This document shows, in pieces, positions 11,318 through 33,459 of a DNA stretch of 33,459 bases. This stretch comes from an uncultured Bacilli bacterium (GTDB taxonomy: Bacteria; Bacillota_I; Bacilli_A; RF39; UBA660): positions 1 through 33,459 of the forward strand of contig CANRCA010000005.1 in NCBI GenBank assembly GCA_947628985.1, written 5' to 3'. Position 1 is the stretch's first letter, and every line of letters starts with the position of its first letter. Below the pieces are notes generated by a model, which did not search any database, had not been told where the DNA came from, and was given only the letters and a program-made list of their open reading frames with translations. The position numbers and the translations under genes are program-made.

Positions 11318-12823
11318 ATGAATTTAAATATAATAGAGTTAATGAATTATGATTTTGGTAAATTTATAAAATTAGTAGAATTAGGAATTATTGATGAAGA
11401 AAAAGCTTGTAAGTCTGTTATTCAAAGTAATACTCCTGTCTATATTTATGAGTTTGCAAGAAGTATAAAATCTTCAAATATAGAAAAACTAGAAGATGCG
11501 ATAATTCAAACTAAAAGTGTAGAATTTATTTTTGAATTTGCTAAAAATATTAAAAGATCAAATAAGGAAAAATTAGAAGATGCGATAATTCAATTAGAAA
11601 ATATAAAATATATTTATTGGTTTGCTTATGGTATAAAAGGCGTTAATGTAGAAAAACTAGAAAATGCAATTATTCAATCTGAAAATGCAGAGTATATTTA
11701 TAAATTTGCAAGTGATGAATTTATAAAAGTTAAAAATATAGAAAAATTAGAAGAAGCAATTATTAAAACAAAAGATGCAAAATATATTTATGAGTTTGCA
11801 AGTGATGTAGAAAATTCAAATAAAGAAAAGTTAGAGGATATAATAATTCAATTAGGAAATACAAAGTATATTTATTGGTTTGCTTATGGTGTAAAAGGTG
11901 TTAATGTAGAAAAACTAGAAAATGCAATTATTCAATCTGGAAATGCAGAATATATTTATAAATTTGCAAGTGATATAAAAAATTCAAATAAAGAAAAGTT
12001 AGAAAAAGCAATAATTCAAACAGGAAATGCAGAGTATATTTATAAATTTGCAAGAGATATAGAAAATGTAAATATAAAAGAATTAGAAGATGCAATAATT
12101 CAAAGTGGAGATGCAGAATATATTTATGCTTTTGCTAAGTTTATAAAAGAAACTAACATAAAAGAACTAGAAAAAGCGATAATCCAAACAGGAGATGCAG
12201 AATATATTTATAATTTTGCAAATTTTCTAAGAAATGAAAGATATATAAAAGTATCAGAAATAGAAAAATTAGAAGAAGCTATAATTAAAAGTAAAAATGC
12301 AGAATATATTTATTATTTTGCAAGAGATATAGTAGGGGATAATATAGAGGAATTAGAAGATGCATTAATTTGCACTAAAGATGCTAGATATATTCAATTA
12401 TTTGCTCTTAATATAGATGGTGCAAATATAGAAAAACTAGAAAATGCAATTATTCAAACTGGGGATCTTTTTTATATTGATTCTTTTGCTTCTATTATAA
12501 AAGGGTCAAATATAGAAAAATTAGAAGACACAATAATTAAAAGTGGAAATGCAAAATATATTTATAATTTTGCAAAATATATAAAAGGTGCTAATATTAA
12601 AAAATTAAAAGCTGCAATCAATAAAACTAAAAATGATGAATTTATACTTCTTTTTGATGAAGAATTAAAAAGAATAAATAAGGAAAATTTATCAAATTTA
12701 ATGATGCTTTTAGAAAATAAACAATATCGAGAAATATTAGAAAATAGTGAAATATATTCACAATTATTTAATGATGATACAGAAGAAGAAAAACATTCAG
12801 AAAAAATTTTAAAAATCAAATAA
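11318..12823 (+). CDS. Alpha-solenoid-like protein of fourteen 28-residue repeats
   Basis: A 501-residue protein, not recognised by name. After an N-terminal cap (1-53) it consists of 14 units (54-453) with the pattern N(I/V/K)EKLEDAIIQ, then TGNAEYIYKFA, then a short linker. Each unit can form two short helices, so a curved solenoid for binding a protein or peptide is the likely shape. Ten units or more keep EYIY.FA-type cores. Unit 3 carries two extra residues and unit 9 six. Residues 454-501 form a diverged, charged tail. No signal peptide or membrane helix. Good site AAAGGAGAG before the ATG. It lies next to a Fic gene but has its own promoter. Confidence 0.8.
   Translation: MNLNIIELMNYDFGKFIKLVELGIIDEEKACKSVIQSNTPVYIYEFARSIKSSNIEKLEDAIIQTKSVEFIFEFAKNIKRSNKEKLEDAIIQLENIKYIYWFAYGIKGVNVEKLENAIIQSENAEYIYKFASDEFIKVKNIEKLEEAIIKTKDAKYIYEFASDVENSNKEKLEDIIIQLGNTKYIYWFAYGVKGVNVEKLENAIIQSGNAEYIYKFASDIKNSNKEKLEKAIIQTGNAEYIYKFARDIENVNIKELEDAIIQSGDAEYIYAFAKFIKETNIKELEKAIIQTGDAEYIYNFANFLRNERYIKVSEIEKLEEAIIKSKNAEYIYYFARDIVGDNIEELEDALICTKDARYIQLFALNIDGANIEKLENAIIQTGDLFYIDSFASIIKGSNIEKLEDTIIKSGNAKYIYNFAKYIKGANIKKLKAAINKTKNDEFILLFDEELKRINKENLSNLMMLLENKQYREILENSEIYSQLFNDDTEEEKHSEKILKIK
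11477..12676 (+). repeat. Fourteen tandem 84-base coding repeats
   Basis: The units begin at residues 54, 82, 110, 140, 168, 196, 224, 252, 280, 314, 342, 370, 398 and 426 of the protein. Units 2-3 and 5-6 are nearly identical (both contain YIYWFAYG.KGVNVEKLENAI), and units 1 and 4 are alike, so a block of three units was duplicated recently. The DNA around 11610-11710 and 11870-11970 shows the same near-identity. Confidence 0.85.
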
Positions 12824-23948: not shown

Positions 23949-23981
23949 TTAAATATAAGATAGAGAAAGGAAGGTATGAAA

Positions 23982-24437
23982 ATGAAAAGTAAGAAAGGTT
24001 TTACATTAGTAGAATTATTAGCAGTAATCGCTATTTTAGCAATTTTAGTAATTATAGCATTACCAAATATTTTAAATCTATATAGAAATGCAAGAAAGAA
24101 TGTATTTGTAGAAGAAGCACAAAATGTTCTTAGAACAGCTCAACAAAAATATTTAGAAGATTCATTAACAGCAACTACATCTACACCTTGTTATTCAACA
24201 CTTGAATCAGGAACACCATTAGATTTAGATGCTAAATCATCATTGAAATATGCTGTACAATTTGGTGCAGATGGAAATGTATCTGCTGTACATGTAAGTG
24301 ATGATAATTATTCTATTAAAATTACAACTGGACCAGTTAAAATTGAAAGCTTAACATCATCTGGTGTTCAAACTAAAGGAAATTCAGCAGAAAAATATAC
24401 TGCAGTAAGTGCTTGCCCTCCAGTAGCAGATGAATAA
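23982..24437 (+). CDS. Type IV pilin-like protein, copy 1
   Basis: Class III-signal pilin or pseudopilin, 151 residues. Leader MKSKKG is cut before Phe by a prepilin peptidase, then FTLVELLAVIAILAILVIIA forms the assembly helix, with Glu5 of the mature protein present. The head has TPCYST, LDLDAKSSLKYAVQF and a final SACPP; the two Cys could close a disulfide loop. Start: the ATG at 23976 is in frame, but copy 2 shows that the second ATG (here 23982) is the shared one. No pilus motor, platform or peptidase gene is in the window. Confidence 0.88.
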   Translation: MKSKKGFTLVELLAVIAILAILVIIALPNILNLYRNARKNVFVEEAQNVLRTAQQKYLEDSLTATTSTPCYSTLESGTPLDLDAKSSLKYAVQFGADGNVSAVHVSDDNYSIKITTGPVKIESLTSSGVQTKGNSAEKYTAVSACPPVADE

Positions 24438-24463
24438 TTAAAAATACAATAAAACAATAATTT

Positions 24464-24503
24464 AAAAGACTATTCAAAATAACGATGTGAATAGTCTTTT
24501 ATA
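24464..24503 (+). terminator. Terminator of pilin gene 1
   Basis: Perfect 12-base stem AAAAGACTATTC (24464-24475) / GAATAGTCTTTT (24489-24500). The same stem recurs after pilin 3. Confidence 0.75.
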
Positions 24504-24551
24504 ATGCAAAGTAAAAAAATAAAATTATAATGTAAAGTAAAAAAAATAAAA

Positions 24552-24580
24552 TTGACATTTTGAATATATATATATATAAT
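24552..24580 (+). promoter_or_regulatory. Promoter of pilin gene 2
   Basis: TTGACA (24552-24557) and TATAAT (24575-24580), spacer 17. (TA)7 at 24565-24578 runs through the spacer into the -10 box. Confidence 0.88.
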
Positions 24581-24614
24581 TTAAATATAAGATAGAGAAA
24601 GGAAGGTATGAAAT

Positions 24615-25073
24615 ATGAAAAATAAGAAAGGTTTTACATTAGTAGAATTATTAGCAGTAATCGCTATTTTAGCAATTTTAGTAATTATAGCATTACCTAA
24701 TATTTTAAACTTATATAGAAATGCAAGAGAAAATGTATTTGTAGAGGAAGCACAAAATGTACTTAGAACAGCACAACAAAAATATTTAGAAGATTCTATG
24801 AATAATACTGCTGTAGAATGCTATTCAACTGATGAAGGACATCAATTAGACCTAGATGCTAAATCATCATTACATTACTATGTTCAAATATCAGGTGGAA
24901 AAATTGTTAAATTACAAGTTGAAGATGGAAATTATCAACTAGTAGCAGATGGAAGCAGTACTGGAGCAGAAATAAAATTAGATCAATTAGGTAATAAATC
25001 TTCTAACAAAACATATAAATCTGCTGCTTATGCTAATTTAACTGTTACTAAATGTCCAACACCTGGTGCTTAA
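24615..25073 (+). CDS. Type IV pilin-like protein, copy 2
   Basis: 152 residues, leader MKNKKG, and an N-terminal helix nearly identical to copy 1 (one visible change, NARENVF for NARKNVF). The head differs: VECYSTDEG, LDLDAKSSLHYYVQIS and a final TKCPTPGA, keeping both Cys and the LDLDAKS motif. The ATG at 24608 is out of frame and meets a stop within six codons, so translation starts at 24615. It has its own promoter and terminator. Confidence 0.88.
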   Translation: MKNKKGFTLVELLAVIAILAILVIIALPNILNLYRNARENVFVEEAQNVLRTAQQKYLEDSMNNTAVECYSTDEGHQLDLDAKSSLHYYVQISGGKIVKLQVEDGNYQLVADGSSTGAEIKLDQLGNKSSNKTYKSAAYANLTVTKCPTPGA

Positions 25074-25090
25074 TTATTATGTCAATGATT

Positions 25091-25115
25091 AAACTGCTTA
25101 AGTGAGCAGTTTTTT
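25091..25115 (+). terminator. Terminator of pilin gene 2
   Basis: Stem AAACTGCT (25091-25098) / AGCAGTTT (25105-25112), loop TAAGTG, then a T run. Different from the terminators of copies 1 and 3. Confidence 0.8.
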
Positions 25116-25129
25116 AATGTAAAGTTATA

Positions 25130-25160
25130 TTGACATTTCGAATATATATATATATATAAT
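25130..25160 (+). promoter_or_regulatory. Promoter of pilin gene 3, with a longer TA spacer
   Basis: TTGACA (25130-25135) and TATAAT (25155-25160), spacer 19 because the repeat is (TA)8 at 25143-25158. One unit more than copy 2, and less favourable for RNA polymerase than 17. Confidence 0.8.
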
Positions 25161-25193
25161 CTAAGTATAAGGTAGAGAAAGGAAGGTATGAAA

Positions 25194-25643
25194 ATGAAAA
25201 GTAAGAAAGGATTTACATTAGTAGAATTATTAGCAGTAATCGCTATTTTAGCAATCTTAGTAATAATAGCATTACCAAATATTCTAAATCTATATAGAAA
25301 TGCAAGAAAGAATGTATTTGTAGAAGAAGCACAAAATGTACTTAGAACAGCACAACAACAATATTTACAAGATTCATTAACTTCAACTACATCTAATCCT
25401 TGTTATTCAAATACTGTTAGTGGTAAAACTGCGCTAGATTTAGATGCTAAATCAACATTAAAATATGCTGTACAATTTGCAGTAGATGGAACTGTAGATG
25501 CTATACATGTAAGTGATAGTAATTATTCTATTAAACTAACAACAGGTTCAATTAAAATTGAAGACTTAAAATCAGATGGCATTGCTGAAACTCTTGAAGC
25601 AGTATCAGCAACAGCATGTCCTACAAAATCAGACGGTGATTAA
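25194..25643 (+). CDS. Type IV pilin-like protein, copy 3
   Basis: 149 residues from the ATG at 25194 (an in-frame ATG lies at 25188). The leader MKSKKG and the helix are identical to copy 1; the head is closest to copy 1 (NPCYSN, LDLDAKSTLKYAVQF, final ATACPTK). It is the last pilin before the sequence changes character at about 25735. Confidence 0.88.
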   Translation: MKSKKGFTLVELLAVIAILAILVIIALPNILNLYRNARKNVFVEEAQNVLRTAQQQYLQDSLTSTTSNPCYSNTVSGKTALDLDAKSTLKYAVQFAVDGTVDAIHVSDSNYSIKLTTGSIKIEDLKSDGIAETLEAVSATACPTKSDGD

Positions 25644-25668
25644 TAAAAATAAAAATAAGCAATAATTT

Positions 25669-25703
25669 AAAAGACTATTCAAAATTGATGTGAATAGTCT
25701 TTT
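25669..25703 (+). terminator. Terminator of pilin gene 3
   Basis: AAAAGACTATTC (25669-25680) / GAATAGTCTTTT (25692-25703), the same stem as after copy 1. Confidence 0.75.
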
Positions 25704-25782
25704 AATAATGTAAAGTGGTAAAAAAATAAAATTGTATGGCAATCGCTTAAAAAATATTAAAGATTAACTTATACTTGGAATA

Positions 25783-25828
25783 ATTTCAAATATCAGTTTT
25801 TCTATATTAGTGAAATCTAGCGTATACC
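25783..25828 (+). other. Candidate origin of transfer for the MOBV relaxase
   Basis: Hairpin ATTTCA-AATAT (25783-25793) / ATATT-AG-TGAAAT (25804-25816), followed by CTAGCGTATACC. An inverted repeat just before a nick region, upstream of mob, is the layout of MOBV origins. The sequence itself does not let me name a nick site. Confidence 0.3.
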
Positions 25829-25830
25829 AA

Positions 25831-25968
25831 ATGACACACAATAAAAAAATATATGATTTACTTTATTTTAAAGGAGTTATACATGATTATAATATTGAGA
25901 TAAAATTAATAAATAATGAATATGTAGCAATGGAAAATTTAAAAATAATAGTATCAGTAATAAAATAA
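25831..25968 (+). pseudogene. Short open frame, possible gene remnant (45 codons)
   Basis: The frame is open from 25768 and has an ATG at 25831 (MTHNKKIYDLLYFKGVIHDY...), ending with TAA at 25966-25968. There is no ribosome binding site before the ATG. The composition looks protein-like, but I recognise nothing. It may be the end of a gene cut by insertion, or chance. Confidence 0.25.
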
Positions 25969-26057
25969 TTAAAATCAGTTGTGTTCTTAAAATTATTGAT
26001 ATAAATATTTAAAACTTTTATTAGAAATTTAAAATTATTAGTATTTGAGAAAGTTGC

Positions 26058-26086
26058 AGAGGTATGTGTAAAAGCATATCTTTTTT
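26058..26086 (+). terminator. Terminator-like hairpin before the relaxase gene
   Basis: Stem AGAGGTATG (26058-26066) / CATATCTTT (26075-26083) with G-U pairs, loop TGTAAAAG, then a T tract. It could end an upstream transcript or attenuate mob expression. Confidence 0.5.
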
Positions 26087-26115
26087 ATTATGTTTAAAGA
26101 AAGTGAGGTAGATAT

Positions 26116-27402
26116 ATGAATTTAAACTATGCAATATTTAGAAGCGAACCAATAATGACTATAAATGATTTAGCACAAATTGGATCACACAATAAAAGAG
26201 AAAAAAAGGCTTATAATTCAAATCCAGATATAAATATTGAAAAAAGTAAAGATAATATAGAACTTGTCCCTTTAGCTGATAAATATGTTAAGGGGTTTTA
26301 TAATATTGTAAAAGATTATAGAAAAGAACACGAAGAAAGAATGAAAACAGAGCGAGTTGATAGAAAAAAGACTTTTAAACAAATGTTAGATAAATCAAAT
26401 AATGTTGTTGCTGATGAATTATTATTTACTGCTACAAATGAGTTTTTTAAAGACATGACTAGAGATGATATTAAAGAATGGGCTAATACTTGTATGGAGT
26501 TTGTTTATAATGATTTAGGATATACCAAAGAACAAGTTTTACACGCAACAGTTCATTTAGATGAAAAAACACCACATATTCATTGTGTTGTTGTTCCACT
26601 TATTAAAAAGTTTGATAAACGAACTAATACTGTAAGATATACTATTTCTAAAAAACAATATATCAAAGATAAAGTTCATTTATCTGAATTACAAGATAAA
26701 TACCACGAAAGACTTACTTCTAAAGGTTATGATTTAGAAAGAGGCATTAAAGGTAGTGATAGAGAACATATAAAAATTAAAGATTATAAAAAGATTAATA
26801 GAAAACTAGAACAAAATCTAAATACTAGAAATGATAGATTAGATAAAGTTATGAATGAATTTGAAGAAAAAATGAAAACTACTAAAACAATTCCTTTTGA
26901 TAAGAAACATATTATTGTAGAAAAAGATACTTTTGATACAATGAACAAAGTTATTAAAGAGTCTAAAAAAATTATGGAATTACAACCTAAAATAAACCAA
27001 GTATTTAATGAAGTAGATAGTTATGTTAGTAGTTATAATTTACTAGAAAAAGATAATCAAAAATATCAAAGAGAAATCAAATCATTAAAAACTAGAAATG
27101 GTAATCTTCTACAGGAAAATAACAAATTAAAATCTTATATAAGTACTATTTTAGATGTCATAAAGAAGTTTTTTAGAAAACTATTACAAATTGGAAATGA
27201 ACCCGCAAAAGAAGCTACCACGAGCGAAATAAAAGAGTATTATGATGATAAAAATTTTGATTCTAATGATGTCTATGATATTTCAAAAGGTACTACTAAA
27301 GAAAATGAATTATTTGATTATGCAGGAATACCTAGTTATTTAAAAACTAGCAGAAATTCTTATGCTGAGAACGAAAAGGATGATTATGAGATAAGTATAT
27401 AG
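26116..27402 (+). CDS. mob: MOBV-family relaxase (Mob/Pre)
   Basis: Nicks the origin of transfer and leads DNA into a recipient; the mark of mobilizable plasmids and integrated elements. 428 residues. N-terminus NYAIFRSEPI, then GSHNKREKKAYNSNPDI, and the metal-binding motif HLDEKTPHIHCVVVPL (H-x-D-E-x-T-P-H-x-H) are the family landmarks. A long coiled coil follows (about 230-350; LLEKDNQKYQREIKSLK and further), and the tail is acidic. Site GTGAGG before the ATG. Neither a replication protein nor an integrase is in the window, so whether the element is an integrated mobilizable element or a captured plasmid is open. Confidence 0.92.
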   Translation: MNLNYAIFRSEPIMTINDLAQIGSHNKREKKAYNSNPDINIEKSKDNIELVPLADKYVKGFYNIVKDYRKEHEERMKTERVDRKKTFKQMLDKSNNVVADELLFTATNEFFKDMTRDDIKEWANTCMEFVYNDLGYTKEQVLHATVHLDEKTPHIHCVVVPLIKKFDKRTNTVRYTISKKQYIKDKVHLSELQDKYHERLTSKGYDLERGIKGSDREHIKIKDYKKINRKLEQNLNTRNDRLDKVMNEFEEKMKTTKTIPFDKKHIIVEKDTFDTMNKVIKESKKIMELQPKINQVFNEVDSYVSSYNLLEKDNQKYQREIKSLKTRNGNLLQENNKLKSYISTILDVIKKFFRKLLQIGNEPAKEATTSEIKEYYDDKNFDSNDVYDISKGTTKENELFDYAGIPSYLKTSRNSYAENEKDDYEISI

Positions 27403-27419
27403 TAAAAAAAACGAATTTA

Positions 27420-27465
27420 TGGTATAATAATTTACTGATAAATTGCTGATTTTTCTTGCAGTAAA
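27420..27465 (+). promoter_or_regulatory. Promoter and leader hairpin of the radical SAM gene cluster
   Basis: Extended -10 TGGTATAAT (27420-27428); no good -35. The leader has an inverted repeat TTTACTG (27431-27437) / CAGTAAA (27459-27465), whose right arm runs into the ribosome binding site AAAGAGGTG, so folding could limit translation of the first gene. Confidence 0.55.
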
Positions 27466-27477
27466 GAGGTGTTTATA

Positions 27478-28821
27478 TTGAATATATTAGTAATTAATCC
27501 ACCAAACAAACCATTTACAAACGAGTCAATACTTGCTGAACCAATTGATGTTTTACAAGTTGCAACAATAATTAAACAAAAGTATGAAAATGTTATGGTT
27601 ATTGATATGGATGTTAATAGAATGGAAAATAATATAAATGATTATTTAAAGGATGATAATATTATTGTTTTTGTATATGATTATCAGTTACCATTACATA
27701 CCAGTGATACTGTTGCTAATATGTTTGAAATTATTAACAATACTAATAAAAAATCAAAATTTATTATTATTGGTAAAACATCTTCATATTATTATGAAAA
27801 ATTCCTTAATAATGGTTTTGATGTAGTTATAAATGGAATAGTAGATGATTCAATTATTAAAGTAATTGACGGTTTTGTTAATGAGAAAGATCTGTCTATA
27901 ATTCCAAATATTGAAATAAAAAAAGAAAATGAAATTATAATTACAGAAAAGACCAAAATTGATAATAAATTTGATTTGTTGAAATATCCAGATCGTAGTT
28001 TTATAGATTTGGATAAGTATATGGATACCAGAACTATGATTACTTCAAGAGGATGTATAGGAAAATGTAGTTTTTGTACTACTCCAACTTTTTTTGGAAA
28101 TTGGAATGGTAAAAATTCAAAGCAAGTTGTTGATGAAATAGAGTATTTAATAAATAACTTTAATACTAAAAAAATCATGTTTTTAGACGACAATATGACA
28201 GTAAATAAAAAAAGAATGTATGAAATTTGTAATGAAATTGAAAATAGAAAAATTAAATGCTTATTTGGTTGCTTAAGTAGTATAATTTGTTATGATAAAG
28301 AAATGTTTATCAAAATGTATTCAGTCGGATTTAGATGGATTCATTTTGGGATTGAGTCTGGAAGCCCAAAAATTTTAAATCTTATGAATAAACCCATGGA
28401 CATAAAAAATATTAAACAAATTATAAAAGAAGTAAAAATAATTGGATATAGAGTAAGAACTAGTTTTATATTAGATTATCCAGGCTCAACAAAAGAAGAT
28501 ATTATAGCTACAAGGAATTTAATTAACGAATTAGAACCACATGAATTAAGATTACACTATTTAGCATATAGAGTTGGAACACCAGTTTTTGAAAATAATA
28601 AAAATATAAAAAATAAAACTCAATATATTCATAGTAATCATCCAAATATTGAAAATGATGAATTAACTGAAGAAATTAATTTATTAATAGATGATTTAGC
28701 AAAAAAAGGTTATAAATTAGTATTTGATGATGTTAATTGGAATAAATATAATTTATTAGATAAAAATACAAAATTTGCATCATTTATTCCAATAAAATAT
28801 GGGATGTGTTGGTATGAATAG
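27478..28821 (+). CDS. Radical SAM enzyme with N-terminal B12-binding-like domain
   Basis: 447 residues. Residues 1-140 have the alternating Rossmann pattern of B12-binding domains of the class B radical SAM group (NILVINPPNKPF; VIDMDVNRME; FDVVINGIVDDSI); a DxHxxG motif is not visible, as is usual in this group. The radical SAM core has RGCIGKCSFC (Cys193, 197, 200), then IMFLDDNMTVNK and WIHFGIESGSPKIL. Such enzymes often methylate unreactive carbons. Start: GTG 27469 is part of the site AAAGAGGTG, so TTG 27478 is chosen (MNILVINPP). It ends eight bases inside the next gene. First gene of the modification cluster. Confidence 0.88.
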   Translation: MNILVINPPNKPFTNESILAEPIDVLQVATIIKQKYENVMVIDMDVNRMENNINDYLKDDNIIVFVYDYQLPLHTSDTVANMFEIINNTNKKSKFIIIGKTSSYYYEKFLNNGFDVVINGIVDDSIIKVIDGFVNEKDLSIIPNIEIKKENEIIITEKTKIDNKFDLLKYPDRSFIDLDKYMDTRTMITSRGCIGKCSFCTTPTFFGNWNGKNSKQVVDEIEYLINNFNTKKIMFLDDNMTVNKKRMYEICNEIENRKIKCLFGCLSSIICYDKEMFIKMYSVGFRWIHFGIESGSPKILNLMNKPMDIKNIKQIIKEVKIIGYRVRTSFILDYPGSTKEDIIATRNLINELEPHELRLHYLAYRVGTPVFENNKNIKNKTQYIHSNHPNIENDELTEEINLLIDDLAKKGYKLVFDDVNWNKYNLLDKNTKFASFIPIKYGMCWYE

Positions 28822-30262
28822 ACTTATAGGAATTACTGGTGAAATGTCATCAGGTAAAACAACATTAGCAAAGAAATTAATTAAACTTAATCCAAATTTT
28901 ATCTACATTGATGTTGATGAATTTAGAAGGAGCTTATATGATAACTCAAGTTATATAAATGAACTGAAATTAAGTATAAATGAGTTAAAACAATATGAAA
29001 AAATAGATTCATTAATTCTTAATCAATATATCTATAATGATAATAAAAAGATGGAGCAATATAAAAAAATTTTATATAAATATCTATTTGAATATATAAA
29101 ATCTTTTTCAAATAAAACCATTGTTATTGATTGGGCTTTAATTGTTAATGATGGTTTAATAGATAAATTTGATAAAATTATTTATTTAAATATTTCTGAA
29201 GATATAAGATTATCAAGATTAAAAAATAGTGATTTAACTAAAAGAGAAATTTTAAGAAGATTTGAATTACAAAAAATAAATAATATTAATGATTATGAAT
29301 CTGAAAACTTTATGATAGTAGGTGAAAATATGAATATTGATAAAATTAATGATTTTATAAATTCTATGGAGTGTAAATTTACTCTACCAGAAGATGGAGG
29401 AAAAGTTATATGGGAAATCACTCATAATTGTAATTATGGATGTTCATATTGTATTTTTTCTTGTGATAAAAAACGAGTTGATGATGAATTAACTACTCAA
29501 GAATGTTTTCATGTAATAGATGAATTGGTTAATAATGGTTTTAAATATTTAAAAATAACAGGTGGAGAACCATTTATTAGAAAAGATATAATTGAAATAT
29601 TAGCATATGCTAGTAAAAATTTAATTGTTGATATTTCTACTAATGCATCATTGATAACAGATGAAATTGTATCAAAATTAAATGAAATAAATTTAAAAAT
29701 GATTCATGTTAGTTTAGATGGCAATAAGGAAGAACATGAATCTGTTAGAGGAAAACTAACTTATGATAGAACAATTAGGGGATTAAATGCACTAAGAAAA
29801 TCTAAAAATAAAGTAAGGATTGGATCTGTAATCCATGCTAATAATGAAAATAACTTAGAAAATTTAATAAAGGATTCAATTAATCTTAATACTAATGAAA
29901 TTATATTTTCAATAATGGAACCAGTAGATGGCCAAAGTAAATCACTTGTAAAAACTATTTCCAATGATGCATTGATTAAAAATATTGATAAATTAAAAGT
30001 AAAATATCAAGATAATATAATTGTAAATTATAATTTTGGTAAACAGCCAATCTTTGTTAAAAAATGCCCTGCAGGTGATAAATTCTTATATATAAATAAT
30101 ATGGGATTTGTTAGTCCATGCCCATGGGTATATGAAAATAACAAAAATTGTATTTCTAAAAAATCATTGAGAGATAACGAATTAAAAGAAGTTTTGAAAG
30201 ATAACAATATTTCATTGTTTTTATCAGAAAAGTTTAAAGGTGTATGTTATGGAAAAATTTAA
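28814..30262 (+). CDS. CoaE-like kinase fused to a SPASM-type radical SAM enzyme
   Basis: A two-part protein of about 482 residues. Residues 1-190: P-loop kinase, GITGEMSSGKTT (Walker A), YIDVDEFRRSLYD, and YLNISEDIRLSRL with REILRRFELQ, a layout like dephospho-CoA kinase. From about 195: radical SAM core with CNYGCSYC (Cys206, 210, 213), ITGGEP, and HVSLDGNKEEHESVRG. The C-terminal part has a Cys-rich twitch/SPASM-like region (KCPAGDKFLYI, SPCPWV, VCYGKI), typical of peptide-modifying enzymes. I know of no named family with this fusion. ATG at 28814; an in-frame ATG lies at 28799. It overlaps both neighbours. Confidence 0.85.
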   Translation: MNRLIGITGEMSSGKTTLAKKLIKLNPNFIYIDVDEFRRSLYDNSSYINELKLSINELKQYEKIDSLILNQYIYNDNKKMEQYKKILYKYLFEYIKSFSNKTIVIDWALIVNDGLIDKFDKIIYLNISEDIRLSRLKNSDLTKREILRRFELQKINNINDYESENFMIVGENMNIDKINDFINSMECKFTLPEDGGKVIWEITHNCNYGCSYCIFSCDKKRVDDELTTQECFHVIDELVNNGFKYLKITGGEPFIRKDIIEILAYASKNLIVDISTNASLITDEIVSKLNEINLKMIHVSLDGNKEEHESVRGKLTYDRTIRGLNALRKSKNKVRIGSVIHANNENNLENLIKDSINLNTNEIIFSIMEPVDGQSKSLVKTISNDALIKNIDKLKVKYQDNIIVNYNFGKQPIFVKKCPAGDKFLYINNMGFVSPCPWVYENNKNCISKKSLRDNELKEVLKDNNISLFLSEKFKGVCYGKI

Positions 30263-31079
30263 TAGTATCTATTCTTTCACAACAGAAAATATTGCAGGAT
30301 ACATGAGTAAACTAGATTTAACTGATAAAAAAATAATTACTGTTACTGGATCATCAGATCATATAATTAATGCTATTTTAAGAGGTTGCTTAGATATAAC
30401 AACATTTGATATAAATCCACTTACAAAATATTATATGGATTTAAAATTATCTGCAATAAAAGAATTATCATATAATGAATTTTTAGATTTTTTGCTATAT
30501 AATACAGAAAAATCATTTTCTTATGAAATAATTATTAAGTTAAATATGGAAGATGAGAGCAAAATGTTTTGGTTAAAGGAATTAGTAAATAATGATAATG
30601 ATGGTTTGAAAATGAAACATTCCAATTTGTTTAATTTAAAATATTTTGATGCTCAAAATAAAATTGATTGTAATTTATATCTGAAACAAGAAAATTATGA
30701 TATAATTAAAGATAGATTGGAACTTGTAAAAATAAATTTTATAGAATCCAATTTAAAAGATTTAGAAATTATTGAAAATTATGATTATATGTTTTTATCA
30801 AATATATCTGATTATATTAATACTTTTTATGAAGATAATTATTTGATTAACTATAAAAATTTAATTTTTAGGTTTTTAAAAAATGTAAAAAATATATATT
30901 TTGCTTATGTATATGATATTGATAACAAAATTAAAAGAAGTGTTATTGATGACTTGAAAAATGTTCAAGAAGTTTTTGGAAATATTAAAATTCAAAAATT
31001 TAAAAGTGCATTGCTTAATCAAAACAAAGATACCGAGGATGCAGTATTTATAAAGGAGGAAAATAAAAATGGAAAGTAG
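30249..31079 (+). CDS. SAM-binding Rossmann-like protein, possible aminocarboxypropyl transferase
   Basis: 276 residues. The start SIYSFTTENIAGYM, then IITVTGSSDHIINAIL and CLDITTFDINPLTKYYMDLK, reads as the glycine-loop and acidic second strand of a SAM-binding fold. The DINPLxKYYxxLK region resembles the DUF3419/BtaA group, which moves the 3-amino-3-carboxypropyl group of SAM rather than methyl. This is a pattern-level call; an ordinary methyltransferase is possible. Start: GTG 30240 overlaps the site AAAGG; ATG 30249 is preferred. It overlaps the previous gene and the next one by 11 bases. Confidence 0.6.
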   Translation: MEKFNSIYSFTTENIAGYMSKLDLTDKKIITVTGSSDHIINAILRGCLDITTFDINPLTKYYMDLKLSAIKELSYNEFLDFLLYNTEKSFSYEIIIKLNMEDESKMFWLKELVNNDNDGLKMKHSNLFNLKYFDAQNKIDCNLYLKQENYDIIKDRLELVKINFIESNLKDLEIIENYDYMFLSNISDYINTFYEDNYLINYKNLIFRFLKNVKNIYFAYVYDIDNKIKRSVIDDLKNVQEVFGNIKIQKFKSALLNQNKDTEDAVFIKEENKNGK

Positions 31080-31557
31080 AAGTAGTGAAAGTAGTTATGG
31101 ATTTGGTGGATATTCAGGGGGATATTCATCAGAAAGCAGTTATGCTAGTGAAAGTCGTAATAGTTATAGACCATCATCATCATTTAGTAGCAAAAGTGCA
31201 TTAGAAAGTAGACCTTCAATCGTTTCAGCTGAAAGTCGAGCAACAAGTTTTAGTTCTGAAAGTAGAGGTATGGGTATTCAAACATCTATCACAAAACCAA
31301 AAACACAATATAATTCTTTAGATGATATTGATAAATTAATCGAAAGATTAGAAGCATCTTTTGGAACTACACAAGTTACTAGCGAAAGAGCTAATCAAAT
31401 TTTAGCCCAAAGAAAACAAAAAATTGAATCTTTAAAACAATTAGTTGCTGATGCTAGAAAAGCAGAAACTGAAGAAAGAATTATTCAACAACTAGAACAA
31501 GAAAATAGTGAACTTGATGATGCTATTGATAGTATGAATAAAGGATTTCATAGATAA
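31069..31557 (+). CDS. Ser/Tyr/Gly-rich repeat protein, probable substrate of the modification cluster
   Basis: 162 residues, no Cys. Residues 1-75 are low-complexity, Ser-, Tyr-, Gly- and Arg-rich, with seven Glu-Ser motifs: ESR at 2-4, 28-30, 46-48, 55-57, 64-66 and ESS at 7-9, 22-24. The last three ESR are exactly nine residues apart. Residues 82-162 form a helical, charged domain (DDIDKLIERLEASFG; RIIQQLEQENSELDDAID). It has the best ribosome binding site in the cluster, AAAGGAGG at 31052-31059, and lies between radical SAM genes and an ATP-grasp gene. I read it as a precursor or carrier protein whose N-terminal part is modified and whose helical end is recognised. A surface or scaffold protein is the alternative. 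Confidence 0.7.
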   Translation: MESRSSESSYGFGGYSGGYSSESSYASESRNSYRPSSSFSSKSALESRPSIVSAESRATSFSSESRGMGIQTSITKPKTQYNSLDDIDKLIERLEASFGTTQVTSERANQILAQRKQKIESLKQLVADARKAETEERIIQQLEQENSELDDAIDSMNKGFHR

Positions 31558-32597
31558 TGGAAAACATATATAAAGATTTACATTCTAATCAAAAAATTTT
31601 TATATATGAAATGCTTAAAAGAGGAATAAATGTTGAAATAATTGATGTTGAAAGAGAGATTATTAAATCATCATACAATGGACATGATGAATTAATATGT
31701 GATAGAGATTCTTCTATAATGCCTTATAATGTTTCAATATTAGCTGGTGATAAAGGATTTACAAAAAAGAATTTGATGATGAATGGAATATCAGTTCCTA
31801 TTGGAGAAACTTTTTTAGCTAAAGATATTGATTATATTCTAAAGACATTTAGAGTATTGAATTGCCCTGTTGTAATTAAACCTGTATTTGGTTCGCATGG
31901 TTTTGATGTATATACTGATTTAAAAACAGAAAAAGACATTTCTAATGCGATTAAAAGTATTATTGAACATAGAGGAGATTTAACAAAAATAATTATTGAA
32001 GAATATTATCAAGCACAAGAATATAGAGTGTTTGTTACTAAAAATGGTGATTATGCAGTATTACTTCGTGATCCTGCTCACATTTATGGTGATGGTATTA
32101 ATACAATTGAATATTTAATTAAAAAAGAAAATTATGAAAGAATGAATCCTAGAACAAATGCTTTATGTGAAATATTAGTTGATGAAGAATTATTGAAATA
32201 TTTATCAAAAAAAGGATTATCTTTACAGAGTATTCCAGCAAATGGAGAAAAAGTTTATTTAAGACCAAATTCTAATGTTGCTATGGGTGGTATTTGTGAA
32301 GATTATACCGATAGAGTTCATCCAAGTGTTATAGAAATTGGTTTAAATGTTCTAAAGGCTTTTCCAGGATTGCCTTATGTTGGTATTGATTTTATGACAA
32401 ATTCAATAACAGAAATGCAAACTGATGATAGTTATAGAATTATTGAAATAAATACTGTTCCAGGTGTTCATATGCATTTTAGACCAGCAATTGGTAAATC
32501 TCAAAATATTGCAAAATATATAGTTGATATGATTTATCCTGAAACAATAGAAAACAAAGAGGAAGTATTAGATGAAAAACCTATTAAAAGACTCTAA
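31557..32597 (+). CDS. ATP-grasp ligase of cyanophycin-synthetase/GshF type
   Basis: 346 residues, a free-standing ATP-grasp. VVIKPVFGSHGFDVY is the ATP lysine and glycine loop; EYRVFVTKNGDYAVLLRDPA and YGDGINTIEYLI match the RVxVxxGxxxAxxxRxPAxxxGDG pattern of CphA and GshF; IEINTVPGVHMHF holds the metal-binding Glu and Asn. The Mur-ligase half of CphA and the GCL half of GshF are absent. These enzymes form amide bonds with an acyl-phosphate intermediate, so this one probably adds an amino acid to a carboxylate, such as a Glu of the neighbouring protein. Its start overlaps the previous stop by one base (TAATG). Confidence 0.85.
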   Translation: MENIYKDLHSNQKIFIYEMLKRGINVEIIDVEREIIKSSYNGHDELICDRDSSIMPYNVSILAGDKGFTKKNLMMNGISVPIGETFLAKDIDYILKTFRVLNCPVVIKPVFGSHGFDVYTDLKTEKDISNAIKSIIEHRGDLTKIIIEEYYQAQEYRVFVTKNGDYAVLLRDPAHIYGDGINTIEYLIKKENYERMNPRTNALCEILVDEELLKYLSKKGLSLQSIPANGEKVYLRPNSNVAMGGICEDYTDRVHPSVIEIGLNVLKAFPGLPYVGIDFMTNSITEMQTDDSYRIIEINTVPGVHMHFRPAIGKSQNIAKYIVDMIYPETIENKEEVLDEKPIKRL

Positions 32598-33276
32598 AGC
32601 ATATTATGAAAATAATGACTATTATGAGATTTTTAGTCAAGCCGAAGATTATGAAAGTAAAGTTGCTGAATATTTAAATAGCATTTCTAAAAATAAAGTG
32701 GTTTTAGATGCAGGTTGTGGGACAGGTAAATTTCTAAAAGTTTTAGAAAACAATGCCAAGGAATATATTGGTATTGATTTATCTAACGATCAATTATCAA
32801 AAGCAAAAATAAAATCAACTAATAAAAGATCGAAATTTATTTGCTCTAATTTATCAAAAATACCCCTAGATGATGGTTCAATCGATTTAATAATTTCTTC
32901 TTGGGTATTGGGTACAATAACTGATATTGAAGAAAGAAATAATGTTGTATGTGAACTTAAACGAATTTTAAAGTCAAATGGTATTATTATATTGGTTGAA
33001 AATTCTGAAAATAGTGAATTTGAAATAATTAGAGGTAGGGATAAAGACACTAGAACAAAAGAGTATAATGATTGGATTTTAGAAAATGATTTTATATTGG
33101 ATTGTAAGTTCAATACTTATTTTAAATTTAAATCATTAGAAGAAGCAAAAAAGTGTTTTGAAGTTATATATGGTAGCAAAATTGCTTCTAAAATAGCAAG
33201 TGACAAAATAGAACATAAAATTGACATATATAAATTTAATCAAATAAAAAGCAAAAATCCAAAAGAAACTTCGTAA
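32572..33276 (+). CDS. Class I SAM-dependent methyltransferase
   Basis: 234 residues. Motif I is VVLDAGCGTGKFLKVL, motif II YIGIDLSNDQLSKAK, and the DLIISSWVLGTI and LKRILKSNGIIILVE segments complete the fold. It belongs to the Methyltransf_11/25 type found in natural-product clusters. GAGGAAG about seven bases before the ATG; it overlaps the ATP-grasp gene by 26 bases. Last gene of the cluster. TTG Leu codons are used freely, unlike in the core genes. Confidence 0.87.
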   Translation: MKNLLKDSKAYYENNDYYEIFSQAEDYESKVAEYLNSISKNKVVLDAGCGTGKFLKVLENNAKEYIGIDLSNDQLSKAKIKSTNKRSKFICSNLSKIPLDDGSIDLIISSWVLGTITDIEERNNVVCELKRILKSNGIIILVENSENSEFEIIRGRDKDTRTKEYNDWILENDFILDCKFNTYFKFKSLEEAKKCFEVIYGSKIASKIASDKIEHKIDIYKFNQIKSKNPKETS

Positions 33277-33283
33277 CTAATGA

Positions 33284-33431
33284 ATTTCGGCGATTTAACT
33301 ATTTCAACCGAAATAGTAACCCACTACGCTATTGGCAGAGCCAATAACCGTGGGCAAAGGGATAAACCCCTTTTGAAACCCCATTAAGCAATAACATTAC
33401 AAACTATCGTAAGTAAAGTTATTGCCTTTTT
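33284..33431 (+). ncRNA. GC-rich structured region ending in a terminator (candidate RNA or transfer site)
   Basis: Three successive hairpins: ACTATTTC/GAAATAGT (33298-33317); CCCAC-TATTGGC-AGA-GCCAATA-GTGGG, two nested stems (33320-33354); AAAGGG/CCCTTT (33356-33373). A fourth, GCAATAAC/GTTATTGC (33388-33425), with inner pair TTAC/GTAA, runs into CTTTTT as a terminator. An overlapping alternative is ATTTCGG (33284-33290) / CCGAAAT (33308-33314). Bases 33301-33360 have 28 G/C of 60, against 13 of 60 in 33121-33180. No promoter is visible before it. Confidence 0.5.
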
Positions 33432-33456
33432 ATTTAAATCAAGTTTAAATAAAAAG
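33426..33456. repeat. 13-base perfect inverted repeat at the window end
   Basis: CTTTTTATTTAAA (33426-33438) / TTTAAATAAAAAG (33444-33456), 5-base loop. It may be a bidirectional terminator for a gene beyond the window, or an element end. Confidence 0.5.
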
Positions 33457-33459
33457 AAA

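Follow-up and report, generated by a model that had tools for sequence, protein, structure and literature searches.

Which product is made by six overlapping genes that combine a small Ser-rich protein with two radical SAM enzymes, an ATP-grasp ligase, a further SAM-dependent enzyme and a methyltransferase? The question is raised by one end of a 33,459-bp stretch of DNA, here called the window, which is an entire contig from a MAG with a completeness of 67.8%, the sequence ending at position 33459. An earlier note on this DNA had proposed that the enzymes modify the Ser-rich protein in the manner of RiPPs. RiPPs are ribosomally made, post-translationally modified peptides.

Organization of the operon

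Six open reading frames, A–F, are present on the plus strand between 27478 and 33276, each overlapping its successor, which agrees with the earlier description of co-directional, overlapping genes (Table 1). The letters A, B, C, E and F denote the enzyme genes, and D the substrate-like protein. Purifying selection acts on each of the five enzyme genes, with dN/dS values of 0.10–0.20 relative to the copy in a same-genus relative. Promoter-like sites in the AT-rich region upstream of the operon are no more frequent than expected by chance, and an Rfam search of 25600–33459 returned no RNA elements. A contig-end repeat was considered and rejected, as the 183-bp contig tail occurs nowhere else in the genome.

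Table 1 Features of the operon and its immediate surroundings, in coordinates of the window
Feature	Position	Strand	Basis and remarks
MobV relaxase, neighbour outside the system	26116..27402	+	NCBIfam MobV, above cut-off
Candidate extended -10 promoter element, TGGTATAAT	27420..27428	+	Upstream of the operon; sequence only, weak
A: class-B radical SAM enzyme	27478..28821	+	PF04055, predicted fold; TTG start, GTG at 27469 as alternative
B: fusion of CoaE-like P-loop kinase (~residues 1-170) and SPASM-like radical SAM part (~200-482)	28814..30262	+	Pfam
C: DUF3419 (BtaA-like) SAM-dependent enzyme	30249..31079	+	PF11899; class I SAM fold (predicted)
Shine-Dalgarno of D, AAAGGAGG	31052..31059	+	Sequence; 9 nt upstream of ATG
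D: substrate (precursor) protein, 162 aa	31069..31557	+	ORF; orthologs at the same position in 13 loci
ESR tract of D	31072..31266	+	ESR at residues 2, 28, 46, 55 and 64, plus ESS variants
Conserved helical recognition domain of D, residues 81-162	31309..31554	+	Precursor alignment
E: stand-alone ATP-grasp ligase, cyanophycin synthetase/GshF group	31557..32597	+	NCBIfam; D278, E297 and N299 invariant
F: class I methyltransferase, accessory	32572..33276	+	Family match; absent from L041

Recurrence and distribution

In a search of relatives, an E with 88% identity came up in one other genome of the genus, and the contig of that relative carries all six genes in identical order within another neighbourhood. 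Scanning a species-level genome collection with an alignment of E yielded 15 loci, all from MAGs, the titles of which are nearly all Bacilli or other Firmicutes/Tenericutes. Once duplicates had been removed, the window and 12 other Bacilli MAG loci formed a set of 13 loci in which the order A-B-C-D-E is kept while the flanks differ; F is also present in 12 of the 13. The earlier note had named failure of the genes to recur together as the outcome that would speak against it, and their recurrence in the same order in 12 other loci with different flanks is the opposite of that outcome; its prediction that the six genes travel with a variable Ser-rich protein is thus borne out. Some copies are incomplete: the cluster in L025 is cut at the contig end, A in L024 is split across two frames, and L037 and L038 are contig-edge fragments holding E and F only. 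A decayed cluster was also seen in L040 (8881-10132), where an internal deletion has left a fusion of residues 1-45 of A with residues 187-346 of E and, behind it, a shortened F.

The cluster is rare and patchy within the genus. It occurs in six of 337 sampled genomes of the order, the same six that hold a full or near-full B, and across the phylum only the window's own genome carries it (392 sampled). Of 385 genomes sampled from the order, seven gave a match to a profile of B, one of these matches being weak and containing internal stops, and probably representing another radical SAM gene. Two same-genus genomes, both incomplete (G001 and G003), have no match to E. Their ribosomal protein S2 is 88% and 90% identical to that of the window, respectively, compared with 86% for G002. 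Identities of E and S2 to the window are 79% and 69% in G250, and 60% and 72% in G230. This patchiness, together with E identities that do not track those of S2, argues against simple vertical inheritance and suggests horizontal spread or repeated loss, neither of which is proven.

Carriage by a mobile element was considered and rejected. Searches of viral contigs with E and A gave no orthologs, and those with B gave just distant radical SAM proteins of 19–37% identity over parts of the sequence; a plasmid search with B found no place covering 80% of it. The relaxase that the earlier note placed beside the cluster is indeed there, a MobV protein encoded upstream, but it adjoins the window copy alone and is incidental. 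The flanks of the loci contain no conserved seventh gene, and only generic ABC ATPases and the synteny of near relatives recur. Neither an exporter nor a protease is conserved in the cluster or its flanks, and such functions may be supplied from other parts of the genome or be dispensable; the conserved set also lacks a known RiPP recognition element (RRE domain).

The substrate-like protein D and its ESR motif

D has no family match, and at 162 residues it is long for a RiPP precursor. It is built from two parts, a helical domain of about 80 residues with the pattern YNSLDDIDxLIExLE...ENDELDxAI, and a remainder rich in Ser, Gly and Tyr that carries the tripeptide ESR. The earlier description of a Ser-rich repeat protein is therefore apt, and the repeated unit can be specified as (S/G)ESR, the tripeptide usually following Ser or Gly. 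ESR occurs 62 times in the repeat tracts of the 13 precursors, whereas 2000 shuffles of these tracts gave 2.6 on average and never more than 9, and the next commonest form is ES followed by another residue. Spacing from unit to unit and the intervening sequence vary, even inside a single precursor.

The two parts evolve differently. Relative to the same-genus copy, dN/dS is about 0.18 for the helical domain and about 0.9 for the ESR part, the latter value being derived from one sequence pair and 65 codons. A conserved domain combined with a sequence that drifts around a fixed ESR is the pattern expected of a RiPP precursor, i.e., a recognition part and a variable core with a fixed motif. Furthermore, a profile of the D domain matched exactly six of the 337 genomes of the order, all of them cluster genomes carrying B, so that a ribosomal precursor in conserved synteny with tailoring enzymes across 13 loci is accompanied by exclusive co-occurrence. 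The assignment of D as the substrate is well supported by these data, while the chemistry performed on it is inferred.

The placement of the ESR tract is not fixed. It is N-terminal in five of the 13 precursors (the window, L014, L022, L024 and L025), C-terminal in another five (L026, L035, L036, L039 and L041), and present on both sides of the domain in the remaining three (L023, L029 and L031). All eight precursors with a C-terminal tract end exactly in ESRW-COOH. At least two changes of layout are needed on the tree of E, the deep branches of which are unresolved. With tracts before, after or around the domain, the leader appears to be naturally permuted, and the D family seems to use all three layouts. 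Engineered leader-to-follower precursors of fuscimiditide have shown that a graspetide recognition sequence is functional before or after the core (PMC13003496). The recognition element can thus lie on either side of the core in both cases; however, the permutation was engineered in fuscimiditide, whereas the three layouts described here occur in natural homologs. If the reading of D is correct, its family provides a natural case of leader permutation, which has so far been shown through engineering (PMC13003496).

The radical SAM enzymes A and B

Enzyme A matches the radical SAM family (PF04055, E-value 1e-18), and its CxxxCxxC motif is invariant in 11 orthologs. The predicted structure (pLDDT 83.8) superimposes over both domains with AprD4 (Z 29.1, 2.9 Å over 389 residues) and with MgmA (Z 27.1, 3.0 Å over 366 residues), a protein glutamine C-methylase. 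It shows the two-domain class-B fold with a Rossmann N-domain which, together with CxxxCxxC, characterizes cobalamin-dependent radical SAM enzymes, and cobalamin binding by A is plausible. The earlier note had called A a B12-type enzyme; the radical SAM assignment and a full-length class-B predicted fold agree with this, but the Pfam search returned no B12-binding domain, and the title of the closest fold by Z score, AprD4, names a diol dehydratase and not cobalamin. A shares its fold with a group that includes protein-modifying enzymes, but its identity to MgmA and AprD4 is 15–19%, and its score on the NCBIfam model for MgmA (TIGR04014) is 112 bits against a cut-off of 360.

In B, the Pfam domains agree with the kinase–radical SAM fusion recognized earlier: a CoaE P-loop kinase (E-value 1e-9) is fused in the window to a radical SAM domain (E-value 1e-25) with a weak SPASM match. 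The two parts are encoded by adjacent genes in L026, L035 and L036, which indicates that both are retained and that the fusion as such is not needed. Conserved motifs comprise the P-loop, the CoaE-like VDxFRR (replaced in two copies by IDxFRR or a variant) and CxxxCxxC, and additional conserved, SPASM-like Cys residues are found close to the C-terminus.

The SAM-dependent enzymes C and F

That C binds SAM, as the earlier note had it, is in agreement with a match to DUF3419 (PF11899) at an E-value of 6e-13 and 49.2 bits, above the Pfam cut-off of 28.2, and with a predicted class I SAM fold (pLDDT 91.7). All 12 orthologs of C match PF11899 at an E-value of 0.01 or better. A sequence search returned no solved relatives, and the fold search retrieved generic class I SAM enzymes, spermine synthase being top (Z 13.0) and tied with methyltransferases, so that the fold fits methyl transfer as well as aminocarboxypropyl transfer. 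BtaA, a DUF3419 protein, is the aminocarboxypropyl transferase of betaine lipids. C and its orthologs share with BtaA the N-terminal SAM-binding region, but C is shorter, aligns with no more than the first third of the profile and is encoded within a peptide-modification operon. By analogy with this family, C may donate an aminocarboxypropyl group, beyond mere SAM binding.

Distant DUF3419-like homologs of C are also found in another setting. At L063 (G086:C7:38001-58000), at least 21 consecutive head-to-tail genes of about 300 codons encode such proteins, and genomes related to G086 (G072, G085, G089 and G105) hold at least three such matches each; in other genomes of that family, single distant homologs adjoin housekeeping genes.

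F is a class I methyltransferase (E-value 1e-21), which confirms the presence of such an enzyme in the set. Its absence from one of the 13 loci (L041) shows that it is accessory and dispensable, in contrast to its listing as a regular member of the six.

The ATP-grasp ligase E

The earlier assignment of E to the CphA/GshF type of ATP-grasp enzymes is upheld: its best NCBIfam match is to the cyanophycin synthetase/GshF region (E-value 2e-68), it resembles the solved CphA and GshAB structures, and the ATP-grasp residues D278, E297 and N299 are invariant in seven orthologs. Its family membership predicts that E couples an amine to a carboxylate that it has activated. Among all NCBIfam matches up to an E-value of 0.1 there is no graspetide ligase model, which sets E apart from the graspetide family of ATP-grasp enzymes.

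Proposed pathway and alternative explanations

We consider it likely that the genes form a RiPP-type operon: D would be the ribosomally made substrate, with a helical domain to which the enzymes dock and with modification taking place at every (S/G)-Glu-Ser-Arg unit. The reading is supported by the conserved unit, a D domain exclusive to it, the fixed ESR and its swappable sides, and it agrees with the retention of catalytic motifs in A, B and E. The genomic prediction of the earlier note thus stands, while the repeat unit, the relaxase, the methyltransferase and the chemistry come out differently from its account.

C–H chemistry, amide bond formation and methylation are inferred steps, read from distant families that all score below NCBIfam cut-offs. 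With the helical domain docking the enzymes, the (S/G)ESR units in the disordered end or ends of D would serve as short cores. E would activate a carboxylate, most likely the γ-carboxylate of Glu, as an acyl phosphate and join to it an amine, either an amino acid or an amine added by C, which in turn would use SAM as the donor of an aminocarboxypropyl or methyl group. Phosphorylation of a hydroxyl, e.g., that of Ser, may fall to the kinase part of B, and C–H chemistry to its radical SAM part and to A, in the case of A plausibly C-methylation or a related radical step; F would add a methyl group. Irregular spacing of the units makes a product local to each ESR likelier than a large fixed ring, and the modification is thus probably local. 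In a more specific version, the cluster would define a new RiPP class: at every ESR, a non-proteinogenic unit would be built jointly by the CoaE-like kinase/radical SAM pair, the class-B radical SAM enzyme, C as a BtaA-like aminocarboxypropyl transferase and E as a cyanophycin-type ATP-grasp enzyme, guided by a domain that can precede or follow the core or lie between two cores; we put this at about even chances.

The main rival follows from the missing exporter and protease, which leave room for a decorated D that stays in the cell. D would then be a functional intracellular protein with permanently decorated ESR tails (e.g., metal binding, polymerizing or a scaffold), and the cassette would be its maturation system, not a natural-product pathway. 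The large, conserved helical domain would suit such a protein, as would the lack of any protease or exporter recurring alongside the cluster; however, the ESR part is almost free to vary and is found at either end, which is more core-like than the working part of a folded protein, and we regard this explanation as unlikely.

Even less probable is that D acts as a carrier of amino acids or peptides, on which a small molecule is built at the Glu of ESR and released while D is recycled. LysW is an amino-acid carrier protein of this manner. The combination of an ATP-grasp enzyme with a kinase and SAM enzymes would be well suited to assembling a bound intermediate step by step, and multiple ESR copies would increase the yield, but the conserved set contains no hydrolase or reductase for release, and E is not a close match to LysX, scoring 38 bits where the cut-off is 276.

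An antiviral, viperin-like nucleotide system, made up of a radical SAM enzyme and a nucleotide kinase with accessory genes, was rejected and is barely credible: the radical SAM domain of B does match PADLOC pVip profiles (E-value 5e-20), one of which is named kinase-associated, but B reaches 61.7 bits on the NCBIfam viperin model (cut-off 180), many other radical SAM families score higher, B has SPASM-like Cys residues, and viperin chemistry offers no role for A, C, D or E.

Comparison with known systems

Having set these alternatives against the RiPP-type reading, we find the closest known logic, by analogy, in the radical SAM systems of His-Xaa-Ser and TVGG repeats. The former (HxsA/B/C/D; Haft and Basu, cited in PMC9062424) combine, in the secondary account given there, a protein with many short Ser-containing tripeptides and two radical SAM enzymes, as does the ESR cluster. 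However, D has ESR instead of the HXS repeats and no NCBIfam match to the HxsA precursor, and the ESR cluster adds an ATP-grasp enzyme, a kinase, a DUF3419 protein and a methyltransferase. TvgA/TvgB systems have TVGG repeats, one radical SAM enzyme, an Fe/ketoglutarate oxidase and peptidase/transporters (PMC9062424). Radical SAM modification at every copy of a short repeated motif is the shared feature, whereas the oxidase and the peptidase/transporters are not conserved in the ESR cluster.

Graspetides, or omega-ester peptides, are made when an ATP-grasp enzyme modifies a ribosomal precursor, and radical SAM genes are at times encoded close by (PMC8939145). The ESR cluster likewise pairs an ATP-grasp enzyme with a ribosomal precursor whose core contains Glu and Ser; however, E belongs to the cyanophycin/GshF group and is not a graspetide ligase, the core consists of irregularly spaced tripeptides, and no PFFARFL-type leader was seen in D. 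The main text of this large graspetide survey does not mention cyanophycin, CphA or glutathione (PMC8939145). The open-access literature searched contains no RiPP with a cyanophycin-type ATP-grasp enzyme or DUF3419, which is weak evidence of absence.

The earlier note knew no named pathway with this set, and we likewise found none that joins these enzymes in the family libraries or the open-access literature searched. As the enzyme mix is unmatched by any named pathway found, the product of the cassette is probably a modified peptide of a new kind. What is new is the enzyme set, the ESR motif and the permuted precursor, the RiPP-like logic being already known. If the reading is correct, a cyanophycin/GshF-type ATP-grasp enzyme, a DUF3419 SAM enzyme and a CoaE-like kinase that is linked with a radical SAM enzyme would join the tools of RiPP tailoring, a trio not reported together in the literature searched. 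With a code as short as ESR and an operon this simple, the proposal can be tested directly in E. coli.

Neighbouring features

Several loci hold further genes of interest beside the ESR cluster. In G002, a second peptide-modification-like cluster adjoins it (L014:2346-5902) and encodes an HxsC-like and a HemN/STM4012-like radical SAM enzyme, a methyltransferase and a 143-residue Cys-rich protein ending in CGIPGGGGRC. In G250, the adjoining genes (L024:3335-6154) encode a C39-type bacteriocin cleavage/export ABC transporter and two small possible bacteriocins. Just downstream of the cluster at L031 (10815-12481) and L039 (10826-12143) lie four to five tandem paralogs of about 90–115 residues with the pattern WxIExxCxG...GCGAxLEVExxDIY.

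Elsewhere in the window, three tandem type IV pilin-like genes (23976-25643) have near-identical N-terminal and different C-terminal halves, and a 501-residue protein (11318-12823) is composed of about 20 diverged repeats of the type KLExAIIQTxNAEYIYxFA.
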